Shown piece by piece: positions 6,325 to 37,891 of a stretch of 38,414 nt of DNA. Within the stretch, counting starts at the first letter, position 1. Each line of letters opens with the position of its first letter. Location of the stretch: the IMG/VR virus record IMGVR_UViG_3300005583_000001, positions 1 to 38,414 of that record; one strand, written 5' to 3'. The notes beneath the pieces were generated by a model, which saw nothing but the letters and a program-made list of their open reading frames with translations, searched no databases and was not told the origin of the DNA. This stretch comes from a virus. Position numbers and translations under genes: made by a program.

Positions 6325-7251
6325 ATGTCTAACCCAAACTTTGATGCAATTTTGACCACAACGCTTGCGAACTATCGCAAGACGTTGGCAGACAACGTGT
6401 TCACCGCACGTCCATTAACCTATTGGTTGATGAATAAGGGCCGTATTCGTATGGTCAATGGTGGTACAAAAATCGTTGAGCCTTTGGTTCACGCCCTCAA
6501 CTCAACTGTTGCGCCATACGCTGGCTACGACACATTGAGCCTTACCCCTCAGACTGGCATCTCTGCTGCTGAATTTGATTGGAAGCAGTACGCTGTTTCG
6601 ATTGCTATTTCAGGAATCGAAGAGGCTAAGAACAACGGCGAACAGCAGTTGATCAACCTTTTGGAAGCAAAGATCATGCAGGCTGAAGAGTCAATGAAGG
6701 AAGGCTTTAACGCCATGTTCTTCAGCAATGGTGTTGCAACTAACTCGTGGAATGGTCTTGGTAACCTCGTTGAGGCTTCGGGTACTGTCGGCGGAATTGA
6801 CCGTGCAACGAATGCTTACTGGCGTTCATACGAAGAGAACACCGCTACGGCGTTAACTCTTGCTCAGATGAGTACCGCGTATAACACGGTTGCTGTTGGT
6901 AGCGATGTGCCTGACACGGTTCTGACCACTCAGGCTCTGTATGAGAAGTATGAGTCATTGTTGATTCCAAACTTGCGCTACACGGACACAGCGACTGCTA
7001 ATGCAGGATTCCAAAACTTGTTGTTCAAGTCTGCTCCAGTCATGTACGACACTGCTTGCCCTGCAGGCGAGGTCTACTTCCTGAACAGCAAGTATTTGAC
7101 TCTTGTTGGTCACAGCGAGAAGTGGTTTGCTCACACGGACTTCGTTCGTCCTACCGCACAGGATGCTCGCTTTGCGCTCATCTTGTGCTACGGCAACTTG
7201 ACAATCCGCAACTCAAAGAAGCAAGGCAAACTTACCGCTAAGACTGCCTAA
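6325..7251 (+). CDS. Major capsid protein (putative)
   Basis: This 308-residue protein lies directly after the scaffold with an AAAAGGAC ribosome site, and its codon use is smooth, as expected of the most abundant virion protein. The composition (Ala, Thr, Asn rich, few Cys) and lack of a long N-terminal delta-domain fit an HK97-fold capsid protein made with a separate scaffold. The middle section VEASGTVGGIDRATNAYWRS, around residue 150, matches the substrate-loop style sequence GGIDR...YWR seen in many capsid proteins of this type. A very stable hairpin follows the gene. No other gene in the block is a better candidate. Confidence 0.85.
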   Translation: MSNPNFDAILTTTLANYRKTLADNVFTARPLTYWLMNKGRIRMVNGGTKIVEPLVHALNSTVAPYAGYDTLSLTPQTGISAAEFDWKQYAVSIAISGIEEAKNNGEQQLINLLEAKIMQAEESMKEGFNAMFFSNGVATNSWNGLGNLVEASGTVGGIDRATNAYWRSYEENTATALTLAQMSTAYNTVAVGSDVPDTVLTTQALYEKYESLLIPNLRYTDTATANAGFQNLLFKSAPVMYDTACPAGEVYFLNSKYLTLVGHSEKWFAHTDFVRPTAQDARFALILCYGNLTIRNSKKQGKLTAKTA

Positions 7252-14844: not shown

Positions 14845-17800
14845 ATGGCTGTATATGATCCAAGGCTCGATAATTTAAAAAGGGATATAGCAAATCGCGG
14901 TCTGTCACCTTCGGTGCAGACTCTTGCAAGCATCCTCAAACCTAACAGCCCCTCCAATGTGGTTCGTAAAGACTGGACAGCAGACGACGCTCAAAGAAAC
15001 GCTCCCGAGCCTTCAGGTTGGGCAGGGTTTGTCTATGACGTATTAAAGAATCCTATTGTCAAGGCGGGCTTGACGGGTTTGTCAGCGCTTTCTATACCCA
15101 TGAGGATCACCCTTGCACATGTTGACGAGGTAACAGATTTCTTGGATCGTAACCCTGAGACCACTGCGTCTTGGAATGATTTTGTTGCCCATGTAAAAGA
15201 CCCTGAGTATGGTTTTGGTAAAGTTTGGGTTGAACCATTTGGCGATAGTAATAAAGGTTTTTGGCAGAAGTGGGGCAACCGTACAGTAGGTCTTGCGGGA
15301 GATATTGTTTACGACCCTTTGACATATGTAACTCTTGGTGCTAATAAAGCGGCTCTTCTTACAGGTGACGTTTTACTCACAGCAACAGCAAAAATTGCTG
15401 CTGCAGAGGCTGCGGGCACTATCACTAAGAAGGCTGCAGCCGAAGCGATGACGCGTCTTACTACCAAAGGTATTCGCGTGACTGGACGTACGGGCAGACT
15501 CGAGTTGGCTCAAAGGTTGACTGATGCGGGCTCAAGCCCGCAAGTCATCCAAGACGCTCTCCATTGGGGTCGTTCACGCGTCCCCGAAGCAGACTTAGTT
15601 GCAGCAAACGTACAGCAGGCAGGTCTGTACTTTATGGGTAAACGCATTGGTGGCACTGTCGCTTCAAAAACTGGACGCAAGTTAGAGCGTGGTATACAGA
15701 CCATGTCGACGTGGGTTGGTGATACTGCTTTTGGTAAGTTTGCTGATGGTTTTGCGGATCTTAGTACAAAACAAATTTCTAGAGCATTGGCTCGTGGTAC
15801 CGCGCCTTTAGATCAAACGGCTGCTTATCTTAGTGCAATAATGGCTCATTCGGGCGAACGCGTTGGAGCCGCCGAGGCTTCGCGTAAGGCTGGACAATTA
15901 TACCTTGTTGGGCGACAGTTAATACCTGACTTTGATGACAAGTACGCAAAATATGGTGCAACTGTTTACAAGTATCTTGATACCGCAGAAGGCAAGGTTG
16001 CTCTTGCTGCTGCTTCTCCTGAAGAGCAAGAGTTTGCCGCACTGTTTGAAGGACTCTTGGAAAGATTAAACAATATAGGTAGAGACGCCAGTCTTGCTAT
16101 TGACAAGGATGCGCCGTGGGGTACTGTAGATCATTATTTTCCTCACATGCTTGCAGATAAAGCAGGGCAGTTCATCAAGGACTCCGCCGATGTCACCGTA
16201 CAGCGATTACGTAACGTAGTGTTTGATCCAGGCGAAAAAACTGGGGCTTTCAAGTCTCGTATGAAAAAAGGCGACATTTTTTTTGGTGAAGAGGTAAGTC
16301 AAGACACTATTGATGCTGGTATTGATGGTCTGAATGCTCATGCTAGGTTGCATGGCAAAATTGATTTCGACTTCTTTGAAGTAGATATCGATAAGGTGAT
16401 GCAAAAATATATTACACAACATGGCACCGAGATGGGCAAGATTGCTCGTAGGAGAATCTTGGTTGAGAGAGGCGTCTTTGAGGCTATTGGTGAGCAGGTT
16501 GTAGAAGACCCTGTGTTCATGAAGGCTATGGAGAAAAGATTGAAGGCACAGTTGGCTGCTCGCGAGGCTTCGTTAAAGAAGGTCACTAAAACTATAGACG
16601 ATGTAGCAAAAAAGGTTCAAGAAGGTTTGCAACGATCAGCGGACGACGCTCTCAGAGACTTGGAGTCTATGAAACTTCGTCCTTGGGCTGATGCTGAAGC
16701 AAAACTGAAACTTGCTCAGGAACGTGCACAGATTGAGATTCGTTTAGATGAAATCATTGAAGAGATGCGGATGCGACGACAGGACTATCTTACTGCTACG
16801 GGTGCAGACGGGTTGCTCATTAAAGCGGCTGATGATGAGGTGAATGCACTTCTCAAGCAGGTTTTAGCCGCCAAGGATGATGTCCTTGCTCAGAAATTTA
16901 ATGTTGACAGCACTAACGACATGCTTCTATCTTTAAAAAAGGCATTGGAGACAGTCCAAAAGTTTGACGCCAAAATGGTGGAGCGTTCCAATATTCTTAA
17001 TGAGCAGATTGAAGGCGTTGTCGCTGGTCTTGTTGATTCAGCGGACTTTAGGGCGCAAGGTCATGTGACGTTTGTAAATAAACTGAACAAGGCTTTAGAT
17101 TACATGTGGATTGCTACTGATCGTAGAGCGTTGAAGGGTGTGCAAGGACGTGAGGCTTCTATTGATTTAGACTGGATTGATAATACAGCCACGAGCGCAC
17201 ATAAAACTGTGATGGGCGTTAACGCCAAGGGTGAAGAGTTTAACATTTTTGATGAGGCTACACGTTTGGTCAATAATGCTGAGAAGAAGGCTAACAGGGC
17301 TGGGGAAACAGGACAGTTTCCGAGAGTTCCCCAGTTAAAGAAGACGTTCAAAAAATTATATTTACAGTCTGAAAAAAGGGCTGGACGTCTTGATGGCGAG
17401 GAAACTCTCAAACAGTATGTCGACGAGTTTGCAACTGAGGCAAGAGAAGCAATTGCATCCAAGATTATTGCTGACCCAACATATTTGGCTATGATGGATC
17501 ATGTCAGAACAAATATTGCATCTATTCAAGCGTACGGTAACGTTGACACATATCAGCGAGTGTTGAAGAACATTGGTGAGGGTCGCGCTACTGATGAAGA
17601 GTTGCGTAGTTTTGGTCTCGCTCTTGTCGTTTCTGACGATGGTCAAAGCAATATCGCTTTGCGTAATGCAATTCTTGAGAACGCCGCTAATGAGCGTTAT
17701 AGAAAATTGGTTACGGCAAAGCGTCAAGGCAAGGGTTTAGCCATGTCTGCTCAAGAGACATACGATAACTATAACTCGGTTGTGAACGCATTTGAGGACG

Positions 17801-20800
17801 CTGTACTCTTCCATGTCGAGTATCAGCGTCTTACTCCTTACAATATTGTACGTGATTTTGGCGACGACATTGTTAGAGCCGCTAAGTTGAGTCCTGAAAA
17901 GGAGGATATGTTGCGTGATGCTTTGTTATTAGCGTCAGACGAGATAGATGCTGCAACTATTTTAAGAGGTCTCGAAATAGATGAGGATCTTTTGGTAAAG
18001 ATATTTGGTGCTAACGAAGAGATGTTCAGAGGCAATGTCGTGTATCGTGGCAACAGGGCTGGCTTTAATCAGATTGCTGACGATATTATGGAGAAGTTTA
18101 GCACTCAGATGTCGACGCTTGACATGATGAATGCGGGAGACGTAAGATATTCTGCTTTTGGCGTTGGTGGTAGTAGTGGCAGTGGCGTCTCTACGTGGGG
18201 TGAACTAATTGATTATGCGGCTGAACGCGCCGCACAGTATGGTCGCGTTTCTTTAGATATGGAAGAAACGGCTGAAGGTTTTGCCAGGGCTGTTACAAAG
18301 AAGAAAACTGGGACGCTATCTGTTGAACAGTTCTTGCGCAATCAGGCGCAGGCTGCGCGTTTTGCTGATGACGTTTTTGAGGATGCTCGTCGACAAGGTT
18401 CGGCTAAGGTAACTAAGATTAGTGACGCTTTGAAAGAAAAGTTACAGGTGTATTATGACGAGCCACCAGTTGGTCAACCTTCGATTACTAACTTGATAGA
18501 AATTGCAAAGAGAGATATTGCCGAAACACAAATCAGGTTCTACGATAGTGAAGGTGGTCGAGAGATAAAGATTGCACAGGGATTGTTTTCTAAGGGTGAA
18601 ATCTCTGCTGAAGATTTGGCACAAATAAAAGAACAAGTTGGTGCCAGACAGCAACAAAAGATTGCTTCTATCAAAGACCCTAGGATAGACGCCAAGGGCG
18701 TTGCTTTGAAGACGTTGCCAAAGCAGAAAGAAGAACTTGCTCAATTAATTATGGAACAGCAGTTTGCCAAGACTGTCGAGGCTCGTATGGAAAATCTCAC
18801 AAAAACGTTGATGGAAAATAATTTGACTCCTACTGCAGACATGTATGACGCTATTGTCGTCGCTTCTGCTCGTGCCACAGGCAGACAGTTTGAAGACAGT
18901 TTAATAGTGATGCAAGCGAGTAGAACTAGGATTGCTCAAGCGTTGGAGATAAACACTGCTGATTTTGCAGACAACCCTCAAGGGTTGTTTGCTGCAATCA
19001 TGGACACTCTTCAGGCTGGCGGCGACAGTGAGATTCACGGCGACGTGTTGGCAATGTTTAACGATGGTACTGATTCTTCTCATTTGTTTGGAAGGATGTT
19101 TGAGTCTGGTAGTGCCATGTCTGCTTCGGGTGAGGGACGTTCCATAACTGGTTTGGAGAACCGTATTGCTCAAGCGCAGACCAGGGTGCGTCAAGAGGAG
19201 GAGTTGATTCGTAGAGGTCTTCCTGTTGCTGACGAGGCGAGACTTATTTCTGATCGAGCCTTGATTGCAAACCCGAACAACAAGGCGATGATAGCCAAGA
19301 TGAAAGCAGATTTTCAGGAGGAAGCACGTACATGGTGGATGACTTATATTGATCGCTCCGCAAAGCGTACGTCCATTACTAAAAAAATGATTTCTGACAG
19401 GTTACGTGAAAACGAAGCCTTACGTAAAGTAGAGGCAGCCAGGGGTGCGAGCAGAGGCTCTATGACCGAGGACTCTAGTGTTGCTGACATGGTTCGATGG
19501 TTGAAAGATAAGGAGAAGAACATTACGGCTCGTAGTTCTGAGTTACGTAAGTCTTCAACATTTTTTACTAATCGCATGGACCCTTTTTGGGTTAAGCGTA
19601 ACTTGGGGGATGCCAACATCACTTCTCGTCTTGATAACCTTTATTTGGTTACACGGAAGTTGGAGCAGGAACTTAAGATTGGCCGACGTTTAGAGACCAG
19701 TATTATTGGTTTGGAAGAGAAGTTGTTGAACATGCTTCCTGAGGCGAGAAAGCAGGAGAGGTTGTTGGCACGTTTGACCTCTACGAATCCTAGAGACCAT
19801 ATCTTTGTTGCTAACACGAAGCCTGGCGAACGCATGCTGGATGAGGTTGCATACGCTAAGGCTCTTGCCGAGTTTGATGAGCCTGACGATGTCGCTAAAA
19901 TGGATTTTGATGCAGCGAAGAAGTGGCGTGCAGATAACACTAGGAAGAAGAATGCTTTCATTGCTGAAGCGGAAGCGGGTGAAGCGCTTGCGATGAAGCA
20001 GAGAGACAAGATGCTTATGGATACTCGTGATGCTTCTCTTGCTTTAGACAATTTTAAAACGTCGCCTGAGTATTATCGTGCTGTGCAGATGCGACGTGAA
20101 CATGATTTGTTGAAGCAGTTGGCTGGCATGGATATGAAGCAGACTAGGAACCTTATCTCTACTCAGTCACCTCATCATCTAGTGGCTGAGGAAGCCTACA
20201 AGGCTGGTACTGGTACTTACTATCGCGTACGCCCACCTGTGGAGGGCGAACGACTTGAGCGCGAGATTGCTGAACTTTACAACGAGATAAAAGGCATCGA
20301 CAGGTATGGTAGTACTGCTAAGGCTGACGCTGGTCGTATGGCTTCTGAGGACAGGAAAGATATCCTTGATGCTGCTGCTGTTACAGATAAAAAGCAGGCA
20401 GGTGAATTGAAGGCTGATAAATTGGCGAAGGTTGCTGAACTTGAAGATCAGTTGCGTAGACTGAACCATCAAGGTGACATAGGCAGGGTTGATGATAGCC
20501 ATGTGTTTTCTTCTTCGAACGAATACTTTACCGCTAAAGCGAATGTTGAATCTACTGGTACTATCAAAGATAAGACTCTTCAACAATCTGTCAATGACAT
20601 TATGGCGGCTCTCACAAGTGCACGCAATTTGTATAAGCGTGTTAAGGGCAAGGCGTCTCGGAATGTAGAATGGCTAAACCCTGAACAGAAATTGTATTCC
20701 AGAAAGGGTCAAGTTATTGACGCAATCACTTTGGGTGATCGCGCCGAACTTGGCTATAATGCGGGCTACATAGAGAAGTTGAATGAACTGCGCAACACAC

Positions 20801-23800
20801 TTAACGCTCAAGTGCGTCAACGTAGAGCGTTGGAAGCGACTGTAGCGACTGGCAAGGAAACTCCCAAGGAGATAGCGGCTAAAGCAAAACTGTTAAAGTC
20901 TCTTCCTAAAGAGGACGCTTTGCTCATTGATATTAAGAACATCAATATTGCCATCAGGAAACGTAAGGACTTGGCGTCTGAAACTGCTTCATTTGGTAAG
21001 AATGTTTTGTTTGATTCCAATGGTGAATCAACTCTTCCTGAAGACATCAGGCTTTTAGAGTTGCGTTTGAAGCAGTCTTTAAATACTACTACTTCCGCAA
21101 AAACGCCTTTGCGTTGGGCCCCTGGGACTAACATCGGTCAAGGTATTGACGAAGCCACTGGAAAACTCTTGGATGTAAGTGGAATGAACATTGAGTTTAC
21201 TTCTCTCGAGATTGACGCCATGTTGAATAGTAGGTATCATCTTACTTCCGAGTCTTCACGTACAGAGTTCATAAAGTTCGCTAATGAGAAGTTGAAGGAG
21301 GCTAGCGCCGAGTTGGCTAAGTTTGGCACGAGATTAGATGCTGCTACTGCTGGGACTGGCTCTATGAGCAAGCGTGCGGCTGACATTTTCTTGAAGAACG
21401 CCAAAGATTTTGTGGAGGGTAAATTGGGTGATCCAACACCTGCCCTGAACAGACATGTCTCTCAGGCTGAGATGTTGGAGAAGGCGCTTCTTGATGAGAT
21501 TAAAGTCAAGTGGGCTGCTTTTGAGAAGACTTTCAACGCGACTGAAGTCGGGAAGCCAAACTTAATGTCTCGTCCATACCTCATGAGGCAGAAATATGCA
21601 AAGGCTTTAGTTGACAAGAACAAAGAGATCGCTAGAGTGAAGGCGGCTACCGAAGACGTTCGGAGGGCTGGTGTAGCAACGCTCGAGGCTTACAAGACTC
21701 AAGTTGCTGAAGGTATGTCGTTGAAGCAAATCATGGATGCTCGAGCCGCTGAAAAGTTGCGTTGGGAAGAGATGGGTACGCATTGGACTAGCGGAATGAA
21801 AAAAGTACAAGCCATGGTAGGTAATCAGCAGGACGACCTTACGCAACAGTTCTTGGCAGGCAAGGTGACTCCTAGGAACATGGTGCGTGACCCTGCCAAG
21901 TCTGCTGGCACACAGAAATGGTTGGATGATCTTTGGGCTAAGTCTGTTGAGTCTGACAGTATCGCTCATGCAGATAAGTTGGCTAAGTATGAGGGCAAGC
22001 AGAACTATAAGAATATGGTTGCGACCGCCAAGGACATCGCTACTCAGTTGGACGATACTCGGAAGAAAATTGCTGCTATCAAGGGTCTGCGTGACGATAT
22101 TACCGATGAGGCTCCGTTTGGGTTCAAGGTTGACCGTGTTGAACGCGCTAGACTAAAGTATGCGGATCGTGACAACCTTCAGCAACTAACTAATGCTGAG
22201 TTGGAGGCTACGGCTAGACGCCCCATCGTCTCAACTGATATGACCCCCCCCGATGTCGTCTACAAAAAAGGCAAGGGGTTTGTTGATGTTGTAGGTACCG
22301 AACCTGGGGTTGACGCCAATACTATTCCTGCCCACAAGTTTAGACTCCCTGAACTAGAAAAGAAGTTAAACGAGACCTTGGATGCCATTACAGATGGCAC
22401 CAATGGACGTTACGATGCCCGTACACGCTACAACGAGTTACTTTTGGGTGATGGTACCCCTGAGGGCGGTTTGAGCGTTAGAGAGGTCTACAAGGCTCTT
22501 GAGAGGGAAGTCAACGAGTTGTCTATTGTCGACTATGACATTGCGATACCTCAGCAGATCAACAAGTTCTTTGGTGACATGAATGCTCAATCGGCCATTG
22601 AGGACAGAATTGGGTATTTCACTAAGATCATGGACGAAGAACAGGCTGTGTTGACACGCCTCCAGGGAGTCTCTGATGAGTTGAATGCACAGTTTAAGGA
22701 GTTAGAGACTTTAACTAAAGCGACGACAGGAGATACCCGCAAGAATTTTGGCAAGGCATACAAGGATTTCTATACGGAGCAGAACAAGAGTATTGTTAAG
22801 CGTTGGAAGCAAGAGCAACTTCTTATGGATAACGCGGCGAAGTATCAATCTGAGGCTTTGATTTGGGAATCTGAACGTCAGTTAAACATCAAGATGATTG
22901 CCGAATATCGTGCTCCTTTGGAGGCACGATTGGCAGAGATCACCGCACTGTTGGCGCGTACAAAAGCAGTTCAGAGTAGTACGTCTCCTCTCAGTGCACG
23001 TTTCGTGGAGATGGAGGGCATCATTCAGGATGCTCAGGAGATGCTGTATGTGAAGGGGTCTTATGGTGAGACTGAGGCTTACACCATGTATCCAATCACG
23101 GGCAATGACACGGCCATGAAACCACGCATTGCTGGCATCATCCCTGAAGGTTTTGGCAAAGACGCTAATAGGAATTCAAAAGTTCTCAAAACTAGGTCTG
23201 AAGCGAAAGCGTCAGTTAGTGCAGAATTTGAGAAGAGTTTAGGCGAGGTGTCAAAGCGGGAAAAGATGTTAGCAGCGAACCTCGAGACGTTGAAGATTGC
23301 TTACCTCACGCACAGCGCGAAGATGACTACGTCATACAAAGAGACAGCACGTTTTTATGATGCTCTTGCTGGCGGGAAGTTCTTTGAAGTAGGTAGCGAC
23401 CTCAATGGTCGAAGCGGAACAAAAATTGTTGAGCAGTTGAACGATGGTTGGAAGAAACTTACCGACAACGGTATGCCCAATCTTCAGATGCGCAAAGACC
23501 TAGAGGACATGATTTTCAACTTAAACAAGTTTACTGAGCCTGGCTTTGTTCAAGATGTCAACAAGTTCTTGGCTCGATACACACGACTTCTTAAGTCGTA
23601 TGTACTCGCTAACCCAGGATATGTTGTGCGTAACAGTATGACCAACACTTTCACACTTCTAGCCGCAGGCACAGAAGTGAAGAACATGATTACTGGTATG
23701 AAGATTTGGATGCAGATGCAGGACGCTTTGAAAACTGGCAAGTATGAAGAATGGTTAGACAACCTTGCTGTCGACGTGAAGGACGATGTCGTGACTGCTA

Positions 23801-24711
23801 TTCAGGCCAAGGACGCTAGTGGGTTTGGTCATATCGCAGACTTCATGACAAGTGCACCTGTAGGAAAGCGCAAACAAGGCATGTACGACAACTGGTGGCT
23901 TCGTCTTCATCAGAAAGCAAACCAAAAGTCTGAGGATAGCGCACGTTTCATGATGGCGTTTGACTCTGCTCGCAAGGGTCACTCGGTGGAAGGTGCTGCA
24001 GGTCGCGTAAAGCGATTCTTGTTTGATTATTCAGCGAAGGGTTCTTTTGATAAGAACACTTCACATATCATGCCGTTTTGGTTTTGGACTACACGCAACT
24101 TCCCTATGCAGTTGCAGAACAAGTGGCAGAACCCTAGAGCGTATTTAACTTACAACAAGATTGTGAACAACATGCAGGGTGAACGACAAGACGATGACCC
24201 TCAGTGGTTGCGTGAGGCTGGAGGTTTCCCTATCGGTAAGTCAACATACTTGTCGCTTGATCTAGGTTTCAACAAGTTGGATTCAGAGTTGAGAATGCTT
24301 TCTGAACCTCGACGTATCTTGGGTATGGTCAACCCTGCTATCCGTGCACCTCTTGATTTTATTGCTGGTCAGAACACTGTGTATGGCAATGATTTTGGTA
24401 CGAAGCCACAGGACAATATGGCTGGACCTCCGTTTGGTGCCTTGAGTGAACTGTTGGCTTCAGTGACTGGACAGAACAGGGGCAATGGTCAAGTCTCTCC
24501 AGCATTCAATCATTTCTACAAAATGTTGAATCCTATTGCTAATCCGATGGAGCGTTTAAATCCTCAGACAGTTAAGGGCAAGTCCAATCAGTTGGGTGGT
24601 TGGCTCGGTTTTGCTGGTGTCCCATTGACGCCGATACCACCTGAAATGAGGGCGCTTGAGAGGCAACGACAGGTGTATGAGAATCAAGATTTACGGAACC
24701 AAGGGAGATAG
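14845..24711 (+). CDS. Giant internal virion/ejection-type protein, 3,288 aa
   Basis: One uninterrupted frame takes about 26% of the genome. Early on (about 428-436) it has DHYFPHML, a motif I associate with large polyvalent and internal phage proteins. Most of the middle (about 500-2,900) is charged, helical and coiled-coil-like. The last 400 residues resemble the LPD38 (large polyvalent protein associated) type: YVLANPGYVVRNSMTN near 2,918, then DYSAKGS...FWFWTTRNFPMQLQNKW around 3,070-3,090. Some short segments (such as VLANPGYVVRN) look membrane-seeking. It follows three internal-protein candidates and precedes the endolysin, so it is probably injected with the DNA. No catalytic domain was identified by eye; transglycosylase, protease and polymerase motifs were not seen. 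The start has a weak ribosome site. Confidence 0.85.
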   Translation: MAVYDPRLDNLKRDIANRGLSPSVQTLASILKPNSPSNVVRKDWTADDAQRNAPEPSGWAGFVYDVLKNPIVKAGLTGLSALSIPMRITLAHVDEVTDFLDRNPETTASWNDFVAHVKDPEYGFGKVWVEPFGDSNKGFWQKWGNRTVGLAGDIVYDPLTYVTLGANKAALLTGDVLLTATAKIAAAEAAGTITKKAAAEAMTRLTTKGIRVTGRTGRLELAQRLTDAGSSPQVIQDALHWGRSRVPEADLVAANVQQAGLYFMGKRIGGTVASKTGRKLERGIQTMSTWVGDTAFGKFADGFADLSTKQISRALARGTAPLDQTAAYLSAIMAHSGERVGAAEASRKAGQLYLVGRQLIPDFDDKYAKYGATVYKYLDTAEGKVALAAASPEEQEFAALFEGLLERLNNIGRDASLAIDKDAPWGTVDHYFPHMLADKAGQFIKDSADVTVQRLRNVVFDPGEKTGAFKSRMKKGDIFFGEEVSQDTIDAGIDGLNAHARLHGKIDFDFFEVDIDKVMQKYITQHGTEMGKIARRRILVERGVFEAIGEQVVEDPVFMKAMEKRLKAQLAAREASLKKVTKTIDDVAKKVQEGLQRSADDALRDLESMKLRPWADAEAKLKLAQERAQIEIRLDEIIEEMRMRRQDYLTATGADGLLIKAADDEVNALLKQVLAAKDDVLAQKFNVDSTNDMLLSLKKALETVQKFDAKMVERSNILNEQIEGVVAGLVDSADFRAQGHVTFVNKLNKALDYMWIATDRRALKGVQGREASIDLDWIDNTATSAHKTVMGVNAKGEEFNIFDEATRLVNNAEKKANRAGETGQFPRVPQLKKTFKKLYLQSEKRAGRLDGEETLKQYVDEFATEAREAIASKIIADPTYLAMMDHVRTNIASIQAYGNVDTYQRVLKNIGEGRATDEELRSFGLALVVSDDGQSNIALRNAILENAANERYRKLVTAKRQGKGLAMSAQETYDNYNSVVNAFEDAVLFHVEYQRLTPYNIVRDFGDDIVRAAKLSPEKEDMLRDALLLASDEIDAATILRGLEIDEDLLVKIFGANEEMFRGNVVYRGNRAGFNQIADDIMEKFSTQMSTLDMMNAGDVRYSAFGVGGSSGSGVSTWGELIDYAAERAAQYGRVSLDMEETAEGFARAVTKKKTGTLSVEQFLRNQAQAARFADDVFEDARRQGSAKVTKISDALKEKLQVYYDEPPVGQPSITNLIEIAKRDIAETQIRFYDSEGGREIKIAQGLFSKGEISAEDLAQIKEQVGARQQQKIASIKDPRIDAKGVALKTLPKQKEELAQLIMEQQFAKTVEARMENLTKTLMENNLTPTADMYDAIVVASARATGRQFEDSLIVMQASRTRIAQALEINTADFADNPQGLFAAIMDTLQAGGDSEIHGDVLAMFNDGTDSSHLFGRMFESGSAMSASGEGRSITGLENRIAQAQTRVRQEEELIRRGLPVADEARLISDRALIANPNNKAMIAKMKADFQEEARTWWMTYIDRSAKRTSITKKMISDRLRENEALRKVEAARGASRGSMTEDSSVADMVRWLKDKEKNITARSSELRKSSTFFTNRMDPFWVKRNLGDANITSRLDNLYLVTRKLEQELKIGRRLETSIIGLEEKLLNMLPEARKQERLLARLTSTNPRDHIFVANTKPGERMLDEVAYAKALAEFDEPDDVAKMDFDAAKKWRADNTRKKNAFIAEAEAGEALAMKQRDKMLMDTRDASLALDNFKTSPEYYRAVQMRREHDLLKQLAGMDMKQTRNLISTQSPHHLVAEEAYKAGTGTYYRVRPPVEGERLEREIAELYNEIKGIDRYGSTAKADAGRMASEDRKDILDAAAVTDKKQAGELKADKLAKVAELEDQLRRLNHQGDIGRVDDSHVFSSSNEYFTAKANVESTGTIKDKTLQQSVNDIMAALTSARNLYKRVKGKASRNVEWLNPEQKLYSRKGQVIDAITLGDRAELGYNAGYIEKLNELRNTLNAQVRQRRALEATVATGKETPKEIAAKAKLLKSLPKEDALLIDIKNINIAIRKRKDLASETASFGKNVLFDSNGESTLPEDIRLLELRLKQSLNTTTSAKTPLRWAPGTNIGQGIDEATGKLLDVSGMNIEFTSLEIDAMLNSRYHLTSESSRTEFIKFANEKLKEASAELAKFGTRLDAATAGTGSMSKRAADIFLKNAKDFVEGKLGDPTPALNRHVSQAEMLEKALLDEIKVKWAAFEKTFNATEVGKPNLMSRPYLMRQKYAKALVDKNKEIARVKAATEDVRRAGVATLEAYKTQVAEGMSLKQIMDARAAEKLRWEEMGTHWTSGMKKVQAMVGNQQDDLTQQFLAGKVTPRNMVRDPAKSAGTQKWLDDLWAKSVESDSIAHADKLAKYEGKQNYKNMVATAKDIATQLDDTRKKIAAIKGLRDDITDEAPFGFKVDRVERARLKYADRDNLQQLTNAELEATARRPIVSTDMTPPDVVYKKGKGFVDVVGTEPGVDANTIPAHKFRLPELEKKLNETLDAITDGTNGRYDARTRYNELLLGDGTPEGGLSVREVYKALEREVNELSIVDYDIAIPQQINKFFGDMNAQSAIEDRIGYFTKIMDEEQAVLTRLQGVSDELNAQFKELETLTKATTGDTRKNFGKAYKDFYTEQNKSIVKRWKQEQLLMDNAAKYQSEALIWESERQLNIKMIAEYRAPLEARLAEITALLARTKAVQSSTSPLSARFVEMEGIIQDAQEMLYVKGSYGETEAYTMYPITGNDTAMKPRIAGIIPEGFGKDANRNSKVLKTRSEAKASVSAEFEKSLGEVSKREKMLAANLETLKIAYLTHSAKMTTSYKETARFYDALAGGKFFEVGSDLNGRSGTKIVEQLNDGWKKLTDNGMPNLQMRKDLEDMIFNLNKFTEPGFVQDVNKFLARYTRLLKSYVLANPGYVVRNSMTNTFTLLAAGTEVKNMITGMKIWMQMQDALKTGKYEEWLDNLAVDVKDDVVTAIQAKDASGFGHIADFMTSAPVGKRKQGMYDNWWLRLHQKANQKSEDSARFMMAFDSARKGHSVEGAAGRVKRFLFDYSAKGSFDKNTSHIMPFWFWTTRNFPMQLQNKWQNPRAYLTYNKIVNNMQGERQDDDPQWLREAGGFPIGKSTYLSLDLGFNKLDSELRMLSEPRRILGMVNPAIRAPLDFIAGQNTVYGNDFGTKPQDNMAGPPFGALSELLASVTGQNRGNGQVSPAFNHFYKMLNPIANPMERLNPQTVKGKSNQLGGWLGFAGVPLTPIPPEMRALERQRQVYENQDLRNQGR

Positions 24712-35061: not shown

Positions 35062-35084
35062 AAGTGACCAATCGTTGGTCACTT
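35062..35084. promoter_or_regulatory. Perfect 10-bp-arm palindrome, copy 1
   Basis: Arms AAGTGACCAA and TTGGTCACTT with a 3-base centre lie directly after the stop codon of the 136-aa gene (sharing TA of its TAA) and before the amidoligase leader. All 23 bases match the copy at 37980-38002. It may be an operator for a dimeric regulator or an RNA hairpin for processing or termination. Confidence 0.75.
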
Positions 35085-36784: not shown

Positions 36785-36864
36785 ACGCACGGAATGTGCG
36801 TAGTGCCTAACACGGGTCTGACACCGTGAAAGGCTTGACTAGCAAACTGATAGGCAACTATCAG
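36785..36864 (-). promoter_or_regulatory. Three-hairpin leader between early genes
   Basis: Read leftward, three hairpins follow in order: CTGATAG-TTGC-CTATCAG (36847-36864), a stem with GCCT/AGGC outside and CACGG/CCGTG inside (36805-36834), and ACGCAC-ATTCC-GTGCGT (36785-36801). The last matches 16 of 17 bases of a hairpin at 32636-32656. The first one follows the stop of the upstream gene by 3 bases and ends in TTT, so it may stop or process the transcript. Confidence 0.55.
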
Positions 36865-36867
36865 ATA

Positions 36868-37071
36868 TTAGCGGTTAGTCCACTTCGTGTAACCCTGAGG
36901 CACCAAGTGCCCGTAAGTGATGTTGTGGAGGTGAGCAATCTCACGCAATGAAGGCTTGACCCTGAACCAGTCGTAGTCGTACAGATGATGACTGTTGTCA
37001 TCATGAGTCTCTATCGCTTTCAGAGTCCACACAGCATTGTGAAGTGTGGCAGTCCAATCTACTCGTTTCAT
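36868..37071 (-). CDS. Hypothetical protein behind ribozyme A, 67 aa
   Basis: The ATG at 37071 is 22 bases after the end of hammerhead ribozyme A. Its leader and first three codons (MKR) are nearly identical to those of the 65-aa gene upstream, although the proteins are unrelated after that. The product contains TLHNAVWTLKAIETHDD and LHNITYGHLVPQGYTKW; it is His- and Trp-rich and likely soluble. A frame extended to 37131 would run into the ribozyme and is rejected. Function unknown. Confidence 0.7.
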   Translation of the reverse strand: MKRVDWTATLHNAVWTLKAIETHDDNSHHLYDYDWFRVKPSLREIAHLHNITYGHLVPQGYTKWTNR

Positions 37072-37092: not shown

Positions 37093-37143
37093 TGACTCGT
37101 CAGACCTGCCACTCAGCAGATGACGCCTCACGGCGTTTCGTCA
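37093..37143 (-). ncRNA. Type II hammerhead ribozyme, copy A
   Basis: Read 5' to 3' on the minus strand: TGAC (stem II), GAAA (core), CGCC-GTGA-GGCG (stem III, with closing A-U), GUC cleavage site at 37122, stem I ATCTGC-loop-GCAGGT, core CTGACGA, and GTCA (stem II again, pairing with TGAC). Every conserved core position of the hammerhead is present and in type II order. The cut would lie between 37122 and 37121. It starts 12 bases after the stop of the 65-aa gene. Confidence 0.92.
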
Positions 37144-37155
37144 TGTTCGTATTTA

Positions 37156-37353
37156 TTAGAAGTGAGCGAGAACTCGTAACGCCAACTCGCCCGTCATTCC
37201 ATCTTGGTCGTCATGGTAGAACTCCCAACCACCATCACCAACGATTAGAACTGGTGAAGTGCCTATCGTAACTGTACCCCAAATGTAGTCACCGTGAAAC
37301 TTGTAAGTAACACCCTCAATCGTGACCTCAACCTTATCTGATGAACGCTTCAT
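37156..37353 (-). CDS. Hypothetical protein behind ribozyme B, 65 aa
   Basis: The ATG is 21 bases after the end of ribozyme B and shares its leader (ending GAGATAATAATG) with the next gene. The product is a small beta-rich protein: VEVTIEGVTYKFHGDYIWGTVTIG then WEFYHDDQDG and LALRVLAHF. It has no Cys cluster or membrane span. The unit 'ribozyme, leader, small gene' is repeated next to it with an unrelated protein. Function unknown. Confidence 0.7.
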   Translation of the reverse strand: MKRSSDKVEVTIEGVTYKFHGDYIWGTVTIGTSPVLIVGDGGWEFYHDDQDGMTGELALRVLAHF

Positions 37354-37374
37354 TATTATCTCATTTCTGTTTGC

Positions 37375-37428
37375 TGACTCGTCAGACCCACCTGATAGTG
37401 GATGACCCCGTGTAAGGGGGTTTCGTCA
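37375..37428 (-). ncRNA. Type II hammerhead ribozyme, copy B
   Basis: Order on the minus strand: TGAC, GAAA, stem III CCCC-loop-GGGG with closing A-U, GUC cleavage site at 37404, stem I ATCCAC-TATCAG-GTGGGT, core CTGACGA, and GTCA pairing back to TGAC. Compared with copy A, stems I and III differ in sequence but still pair (three compensating base-pair changes), while the core is unchanged. The 5' end lies 9 bases after a palindrome. Confidence 0.92.
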
Positions 37429-37437
37429 TTACTAAAG

Positions 37438-37454
37438 TGACCAATGATTGGTCA
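37438..37454. promoter_or_regulatory. Palindrome, variant copy 2
   Basis: Eight-bp arms TGACCAAT and ATTGGTCA around a single base, matching the other two palindromes at most positions. It stands 2 bases after the stop codon of the 144-aa gene and 9 bases before ribozyme B. Confidence 0.7.
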
Positions 37455-37456
37455 GA

Positions 37457-37891
37457 TTACTTATTGCCCATCACACCGAACAGCATGGCGCTGGCAACTT
37501 GGGCGTCGGTGAAACCATTCTTGCGCAACACCATTGCCATTTTTTCACGCTGGTCGCGAGTGAAACGCACACTCTTGACAGTCGCAGTCGCCTTGGGCGA
37601 CTTGACCATTTCCTTGTCATATCGGGCAAGCATTGAGATGGACTCAATTGTTCTGATGTCGTACTTCTTAGAAACCCTGCTCATTGCCTCAACACGGTTC
37701 TTGAAAGATTTGGCAGAAGCCTGCCCATCAACATCACCAATTGTGTCTACCCACTCACCAATGAACTTGCCAATGGTGTACCCTGTCTTGCCGTAGACGG
37801 TCTCCTTGTTGCCGAGACGCTTGACCTCACGACTCCATGCGAGAAAGAGACTGATGATTAACTTGATTTTAAAGTCATCACCCTTCCGCAT
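37457..37891 (-). CDS. First gene of the main leftward run, 144 aa
   Basis: The protein is basic: it starts MRKGDDFKIKLIISLFLAWSREVKRLG and ends with SVRFTRDQREKMAMVLRKNGFTDAQVASAML (about 106-136), a segment that could be a small DNA-binding motif. The ATG at 37891 lacks a ribosome site. In the same frame, 23 codons upstream, an ATT at 37960 stands 8 bases after GGAG, and the residues between (RKQDTSRTLAKSQVSFKPF) look like protein, so the real product may be 167 aa with an AUU start. Palindromes flank the gene on both sides, so it may encode the factor that binds them. Not recognised. Confidence 0.65.
   Translation of the reverse strand: MRKGDDFKIKLIISLFLAWSREVKRLGNKETVYGKTGYTIGKFIGEWVDTIGDVDGQASAKSFKNRVEAMSRVSKKYDIRTIESISMLARYDKEMVKSPKATATVKSVRFTRDQREKMAMVLRKNGFTDAQVASAMLFGVMGNK

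Follow-up and report, generated by a model that had tools for sequence, protein, structure and literature searches.

Two tandem type II hammerheads between small genes of a phage operon and their probable part in cutting the early mRNA

Why should a virus place two hammerhead ribozyme motifs, one behind the other, between the first small genes of an operon? The question is raised by one end of the window, the whole stretch of 38,414 nucleotides analysed here, which is a complete IMG/VR virus record. Its plus-strand genes include those for terminase, portal and virion proteins, and among the minus-strand genes are an AEP primase, a DnaB-like helicase, a PD-(D/E)XK nuclease and RusA. From this replication-gene content, the minus strand is most probably the early strand. 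It opens with a run of small genes without known function, and the ribozymes fill the first junctions of this run. Elsewhere in the window, a single 3288-aa ORF (14845-24711, plus strand) takes up about one quarter of the 38-kb genome. No tRNA genes were found in the window, and a nucleotide search with 23 kb of it matched no named phage.

Sequence, scores and subtype of the two elements

Judged by their sequence, both elements are complete type II hammerheads. Each follows the type II order of GAAA, stem III hairpin, cut site, stem I hairpin and CUGANGA, with stem II open, and carries CUGACGA, GAAA, the A-U pair (A15.1-U16.1) and a GUC cut site in line with the UH criterion. Along the minus strand, copy A reads TGAC, GAAA, CCCC CTTACAC GGGG, UC, then after the cut ATCCAC TATCAG GTGGGT, CUGACGA, GTCA; copy B reads TGAC, GAAA, CGCC GTGA GGCG, UC, then after the cut ATCTGC TGAGTG GCAGGT, CUGACGA, GTCA. 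Stem II is TGAC/GTCA in both. Stem III is ACCCC/GGGGT in copy A and ACGCC/GGCGT in copy B, and stem I is ATCCAC/GTGGGT with the loop TATCAG in the former and ATCTGC/GCAGGT with the loop TGAGTG in the latter. By hand count on the minus strand, the predicted cuts fall between 37404 and 37403 (copy A) and between 37122 and 37121 (copy B). Three pairs differ between the copies on both sides, two in stem I and one in stem III, while the core is identical. In agreement with this, the coordinates, strand, conserved core and cut sites (37122 and 37404) proposed in the initial annotation all match the minus-strand sequence, as do its compensating changes in stems I and III around a fixed core, and the type II identity that it assigned agrees with sequence order, covariance models and relatives.

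Table 1. Features at the ribozyme junctions of the window and mini-tRNA-like sites in related loci
Feature	Positions	Strand	Remarks
Type II hammerhead copy A	37375-37428	minus	R1 47.3 bits, E 2.4e-14; Rfam RF02276 31.8 bits
Type II hammerhead copy B	37093-37143	minus	R1 52.4 bits, E 3.7e-16; Rfam RF02276 26.8 bits
P0003, 144 aa, no family match	37457-37891	minus	precedes copy A
P0001, 65 aa, no family match	37156-37353	minus	small gene between both ribozymes
P0002, 67 aa, no family match	36868-37071	minus	small gene downstream of copy B
21-nt leader, copy A to start codon	37354-37374	minus	one base differs from copy B leader
21-nt leader, copy B to start codon	37072-37092	minus	read from sequence
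Palindrome TGACCAATCATTGGTCA	37438-37454	minus	between P0003 stop and copy A, 9 nt from the latter
Mini-tRNA-like sites	L495 ~6763-6810; L497 6275; L494 6025; L500 4049; L502 3251	minus (all)	

Covariance model R1 was built from 69 phage copies fetched by a DNA pattern, with the window left out, and on the 38.4-kb window it returned both copies (Table 1) and no third match. In contrast, a default Rfam search of the locus returned no match. A permissive Rfam search over 901 bases gave only two matches, both to RF02276, with E-values of 2e-4 for copy A and 5e-3 for copy B. The covariance search called for in the initial annotation had a mixed outcome: RF02276 matches both copies and R1 does so strongly, but both stay under the Hammerhead_II (RF02276) gathering score of 37 bits, and by that annotation's own refuting condition the empty default search would count against the finding. 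As the permissive search and R1 both recover the copies, the missing default match reflects the threshold, a database cut-off and no structural criterion, and not the sequence.

A chance match can be ruled out. A structure descriptor demanding at least three stem II pairs picked out just these two copies in the window, and 60 Markov-shuffled windows gave no match to it. With patterns that required no stem I or III beyond the closing bases, both stems nevertheless formed in most of the distinct matches (158 of 174 and 137 of 164), and the R1 E-values point the same way. Over the 69 aligned copies we counted 362 cells with two-sided pair changes, against 106 in shuffles, in an alignment that was chosen with stems required and is hence biased towards pairing. 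Fold energies of the copies were unremarkable (z about -0.7) and stability was not used as evidence; the case rests on core and covariation.

The window copies share permutation, catalytic core and clustering with the family RF02276 (Perreault et al. 2011, PMC3088659). In the published consensus of that family, however, loop I pairs with the 3' tail (PMC3088659), whereas the window copies are without this pseudoknot and below the gathering threshold. We assigned copies to a pseudoknot subtype if loop I paired over at least 4 bp with the tail after stem II, and no such pairing was seen in either window copy. Both have a 4-bp stem II, a 6-bp stem I and a U...G hexaloop, and are compact by the definition used here, namely a 6-bp stem I, a loop of 5-6 nt with U as first base and a 4-bp stem II preceded by A. 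Among the 358 distinct copies of our survey described below, the compact form accounts for 190, just over half, and shows no pseudoknot. Its loop starts with U in 193 of 200 cases and mostly ends in G; of the 190 compact copies, 183 have an A directly before stem II. Long-loop-I copies, in contrast, have a loop-tail pseudoknot in 79% of cases, compared with 20% when tails are shuffled and 9% for short-loop copies. The Rfam gathering threshold fits the pseudoknot subtype and misses the compact form: no copy in L015, L028, L002, L007 or L489 passes it, whereas copies in L164 and L008 do. The conserved loop U and the A before stem II presumably form a tertiary contact in place of the pseudoknot; the lack of a pseudoknot could make cutting slower.

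Gene junctions, relatives and placement

Each ribozyme occupies a short gap between two genes of the same direction. At the first junction, the P0003 stop is followed by 28 nt, copy A, 21 nt and the ATG of the 65-aa gene; at the second, the stop of the 65-aa gene is followed by 12 nt, copy B, 21 nt and the ATG of the 67-aa gene. None of the three proteins matched a PHROG family. The tandem placement, with each ribozyme before a different small gene of one operon, had been recognised in the initial annotation and is seen again in sequence and relatives. Only one base distinguishes the two 21-nt leaders, so ribozyme and leader were probably duplicated as a unit.

The palindrome upstream of copy A may be operator-like or a 3' hairpin. 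The early strand has three copies of its form TGACCAA-N3-TTGGTCA, one on either side of P0003 (37983-37999 before the gene and 37438-37454 after it) and one ahead of an amidoligase-like gene (35065-35081). Loci with P0003 homologues carry another palindrome (TGACTTAATTAAGTCA) on both sides of the gene, with a third copy further along in L368. From these gene-flanking palindromes, which differ between the window and the homologue loci, P0003 may be a regulator with a co-evolved operator.

Relatives were also fetched without use of the ribozyme. A protein search returned the P0003 homologues (L367-L370), and behind each of them lies a type II hammerhead with a mismatch at pair 10.1-11.1; this mismatch also occurs in copies of some terminase relatives. 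Of 80 terminase relatives, 13 loci contain a hammerhead (19 matches), always on the strand opposite. In 12 of these 13 the spacing between hammerhead and terminase is 2.2-2.85 kb, which equals that of the window with its ends joined; in L533 it is 7.0 kb. Six terminase relatives (L494, L496, L500, L501, L502 and L526) have a tandem pair 240-283 nt apart, compared with 282 nt in the window. As 27 of the 38 terminase relatives with at least 3 kb of flank are without a hammerhead, the element is, by this comparison of sequences, dispensable and comes and goes among relatives. L508, L510, L511 and L526 have a core variant with a compensated change, in which the normally invariant A15.1-U16.1 pair reads U-A. 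Among named records, the closest that the terminase search returned was MW202803 (MW202803.1, L489). It holds an unannotated hammerhead (1949-2004, 49.6 bits) in the gap behind the CDS 1684-1926. The annotated start of its next gene (1985) lies inside the ribozyme; automated gene calls near phage hammerheads may have wrong starts.

For a wider view we surveyed IMG/VR with one specific pattern, which fetched 12 viral contigs, and two broader ones, each of which yielded at least 120 stretches. A scan of these loci counted 387 matches, corresponding to 358 distinct type II cores spread over 212 loci; in reversed sequence it gave no match. Between same-direction genes lie 328 of the 358 distinct copies, and the next start codon follows at a median of 24.5 nt downstream (358 copies). 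In 288 of 334 copies the upstream stop lies in the ribozyme itself or at most 30 nt ahead of GAAA, and in 113 of 334 it overlaps the ribozyme. All copies share one strand in each of the 66 multi-copy loci. Neighbouring copies in the fetched loci are spaced by a median of 645 nt, and half of 160 inter-ribozyme segments are essentially one ORF, compared with 21% of length-matched random segments. Searches of whole records found a maximum of 11 copies per virus. The type II intergenic arrangement is commoner than Rfam shows. The initial annotation had called type II rare, a description at odds with its frequency in bacteria, which is as high as that of types I and III (PMC3088659). In other phages, hammerheads of type III and, less often, type I are found in this position too, and their distance from starts is the same.

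Two further arrays were noted. By descriptor, L008 (contig IMGVR_UViG_3300025889_000748) packs 12 type II hammerheads, or roughly one for each gene, into about 5.5 kb; many have pseudoknot-type loops. L390 (Phycicoccus jejuensis) and L407 (Streptomyces iakyrus), from two actinobacterial genera, carry identical-looking three-copy arrays, which suggests a transferred phage or mobile element.

Could the pair in the window be a selfish or inert repeat that persists by duplication without a role? The near-identical 21-nt 3' leaders suggest duplication, and the distribution among relatives is patchy, as this would predict. However, stems I and III of the two copies differ by compensating pairs only, placement from stop to start on the coding strand is strict, and no mobile flanks were seen, so that we consider a repeat of this kind highly improbable.

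Proposed cutting of the early transcript

With sequence, structure, covariation, position, strand and same-site homologues established here, we consider it likely that both elements are active, constitutive hammerheads which separate genes by cutting the early transcript of this tailed phage. From the behaviour of the hammerhead family we infer that both RNAs cleave themselves, which ends they leave and any effect on stability or expression. RNA polymerase would make one early mRNA from the minus strand, starting near 38 kb, and each ribozyme would fold on emerging and cut its own RNA after C17 (37404 and 37122). The first product would be the P0003 mRNA, with a 3' end formed by the stem III hairpin and a 2',3'-cyclic phosphate. 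The second would be a single-gene mRNA of 282 nt for the 65-aa protein; this message would have a 5'-OH and stem I hairpin at its start and the stem III hairpin of copy B at its end. The third would be the remainder of the operon, which would likewise open with a 5'-OH and a stem I hairpin. The initial annotation likewise proposed a gene-separating cut and an RNA with a 5'-OH that begins with stem I, a prediction in agreement with sequence, covariance models and relatives.

Type II is the sole permutation to place a closed hairpin on both new ends, and it is hence plausible that each early gene gains its own stability and expression level. The idea that type II is favoured for its two hairpin ends is weakened as a general rule, because phage hammerheads of types I and III sit equally far from starts. 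We also considered that cutting might expose the start site. Predicted accessibility of ribosome-binding site and start, however, went from 0.55 to 0.57 on cutting (mean of 293 copies), no meaningful change, and the two window copies shift in opposite directions.

The initial annotation further described the cutting as regulated. A metabolite, a protein or a ribosome might control it, for example by terminating ribosomes unfolding stem II, and the ribozymes would then act as switches, in line with the 113 copies overlapped by an upstream stop and with the palindrome close to copy A. In the window, however, the upstream stops lie outside the ribozymes. No ligand-binding or switch-like extension and no conserved extra domain was seen, stems I and III being short closed hairpins with loops of only 4-7 nt, and start-site accessibility is predicted to be barely altered by cutting. 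Regulated cutting hence appears unlikely to us.

The excised fragment, with its 5'-OH and 2',3'-cyclic phosphate, might also be re-ligated into a circular mRNA of 282 nt carrying the 65-aa gene, either by host RtcB or by a chimeric ribozyme of copies A and B, whose stem II strands are identical. The shared TGAC/GTCA would allow the fragment ends to pair, and the closest named phage, MW202803, encodes an RNA ligase. Yet stem II differs between copies in 28 of the 66 multi-copy loci, such that cross-pairing is not conserved, and many loci contain just one ribozyme. The window proteins that were scanned included no recognisable RNA ligase, and the 2011 study looked for spliced or circular products and detected none (PMC3088659). 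We hence give a circular message very little credence, and retain constitutive cutting into linear messages of one or a few genes as our reading.

Described hammerheads and phage mRNA

The pair belongs to an already described kind, as clustered phage hammerheads and the idea of transcript processing were both published in 2011. That study reported prophage clusters of type II hammerheads that flank individual genes or short blocks of genes, and clusters of all hammerhead types flanking phage genes were proposed to process phage transcripts (PMC3088659). Fourteen of 18 consensus hammerheads cut there; three tandem prophage arrangements self-cleaved in vitro, and the one from A. tumefaciens did so in E. 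coli as well (PMC3088659). Like the window, the clusters of Agrobacterium tumefaciens, Azorhizobium caulinodans and Clostridium scindens have tandem ribozymes among phage genes (PMC3088659), but they flank other genes, such as ardA, whereas the window pair precedes two small genes of unassigned function that open an early operon. The HHphage of haloviruses HF1/HF2 also lies just upstream of an early gene start, and the 5' end of an early transcript maps at most 3 nt from its cut site (PMC3088659). It is, however, a core variant of an archaeal virus that stands singly before a helicase gene (PMC3088659), unlike the tandem pair described here. Our literature search covered open-access work, with subscription papers and preprints largely outside it, and within this scope returned no placement statistics, no abundance of the compact subtype and no replacement of one RNA element by another.

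Such a replacement is seen in L495, L497 and L498, where the equivalent junction is without a hammerhead and instead has a mini-tRNA-like element of 48-60 nt, made of an acceptor stem, a small hairpin and a T-arm with TTCRA. It follows the stop at a distance of 25 nt and precedes the next start by 15-27 nt. L494, L500, L501 and L502 combine a hammerhead and a mini-tRNA-like element in one operon. The intercistronic structure consists of a hairpin, a mini-tRNA-like or derived fold ending in GCACTRC and a second hairpin, and the third junction of the window (36785-36866, minus strand; z -4.8) holds a probable derivative. ARAGORN called no tRNA at the mini-tRNA-like junctions, and at junctions of hammerhead-less relatives no other Rfam RNA exceeded threshold. 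A strict descriptor gave 12 matches compared with one in reversed sequence, a small sample, and a looser one had a large background. With acceptor stem and T-arm, the elements are possible RNase P substrates. That hammerheads and mini-tRNA-like elements are interchangeable cutting marks at early-operon junctions, and as such a general punctuation of phage mRNA, is a tentative idea that we hold to be rather doubtful. If the mini-tRNA-like elements are indeed cut by RNase P, both types of element would punctuate phage mRNA.

A 2017 review noted that phage hammerheads often adjoin ORFs for small non-conserved proteins and called their role open (PMC6155905), and in 2023 the reason for such hammerheads was again called unknown (PMC10085705). 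The placement found here provides a testable rule for this role in bacteria and phages: the hammerhead lies between stop codon and ribosome-binding site, on the coding strand, and often is compact. The rule bears on whether a phage divides its own operons into messages for one gene each.
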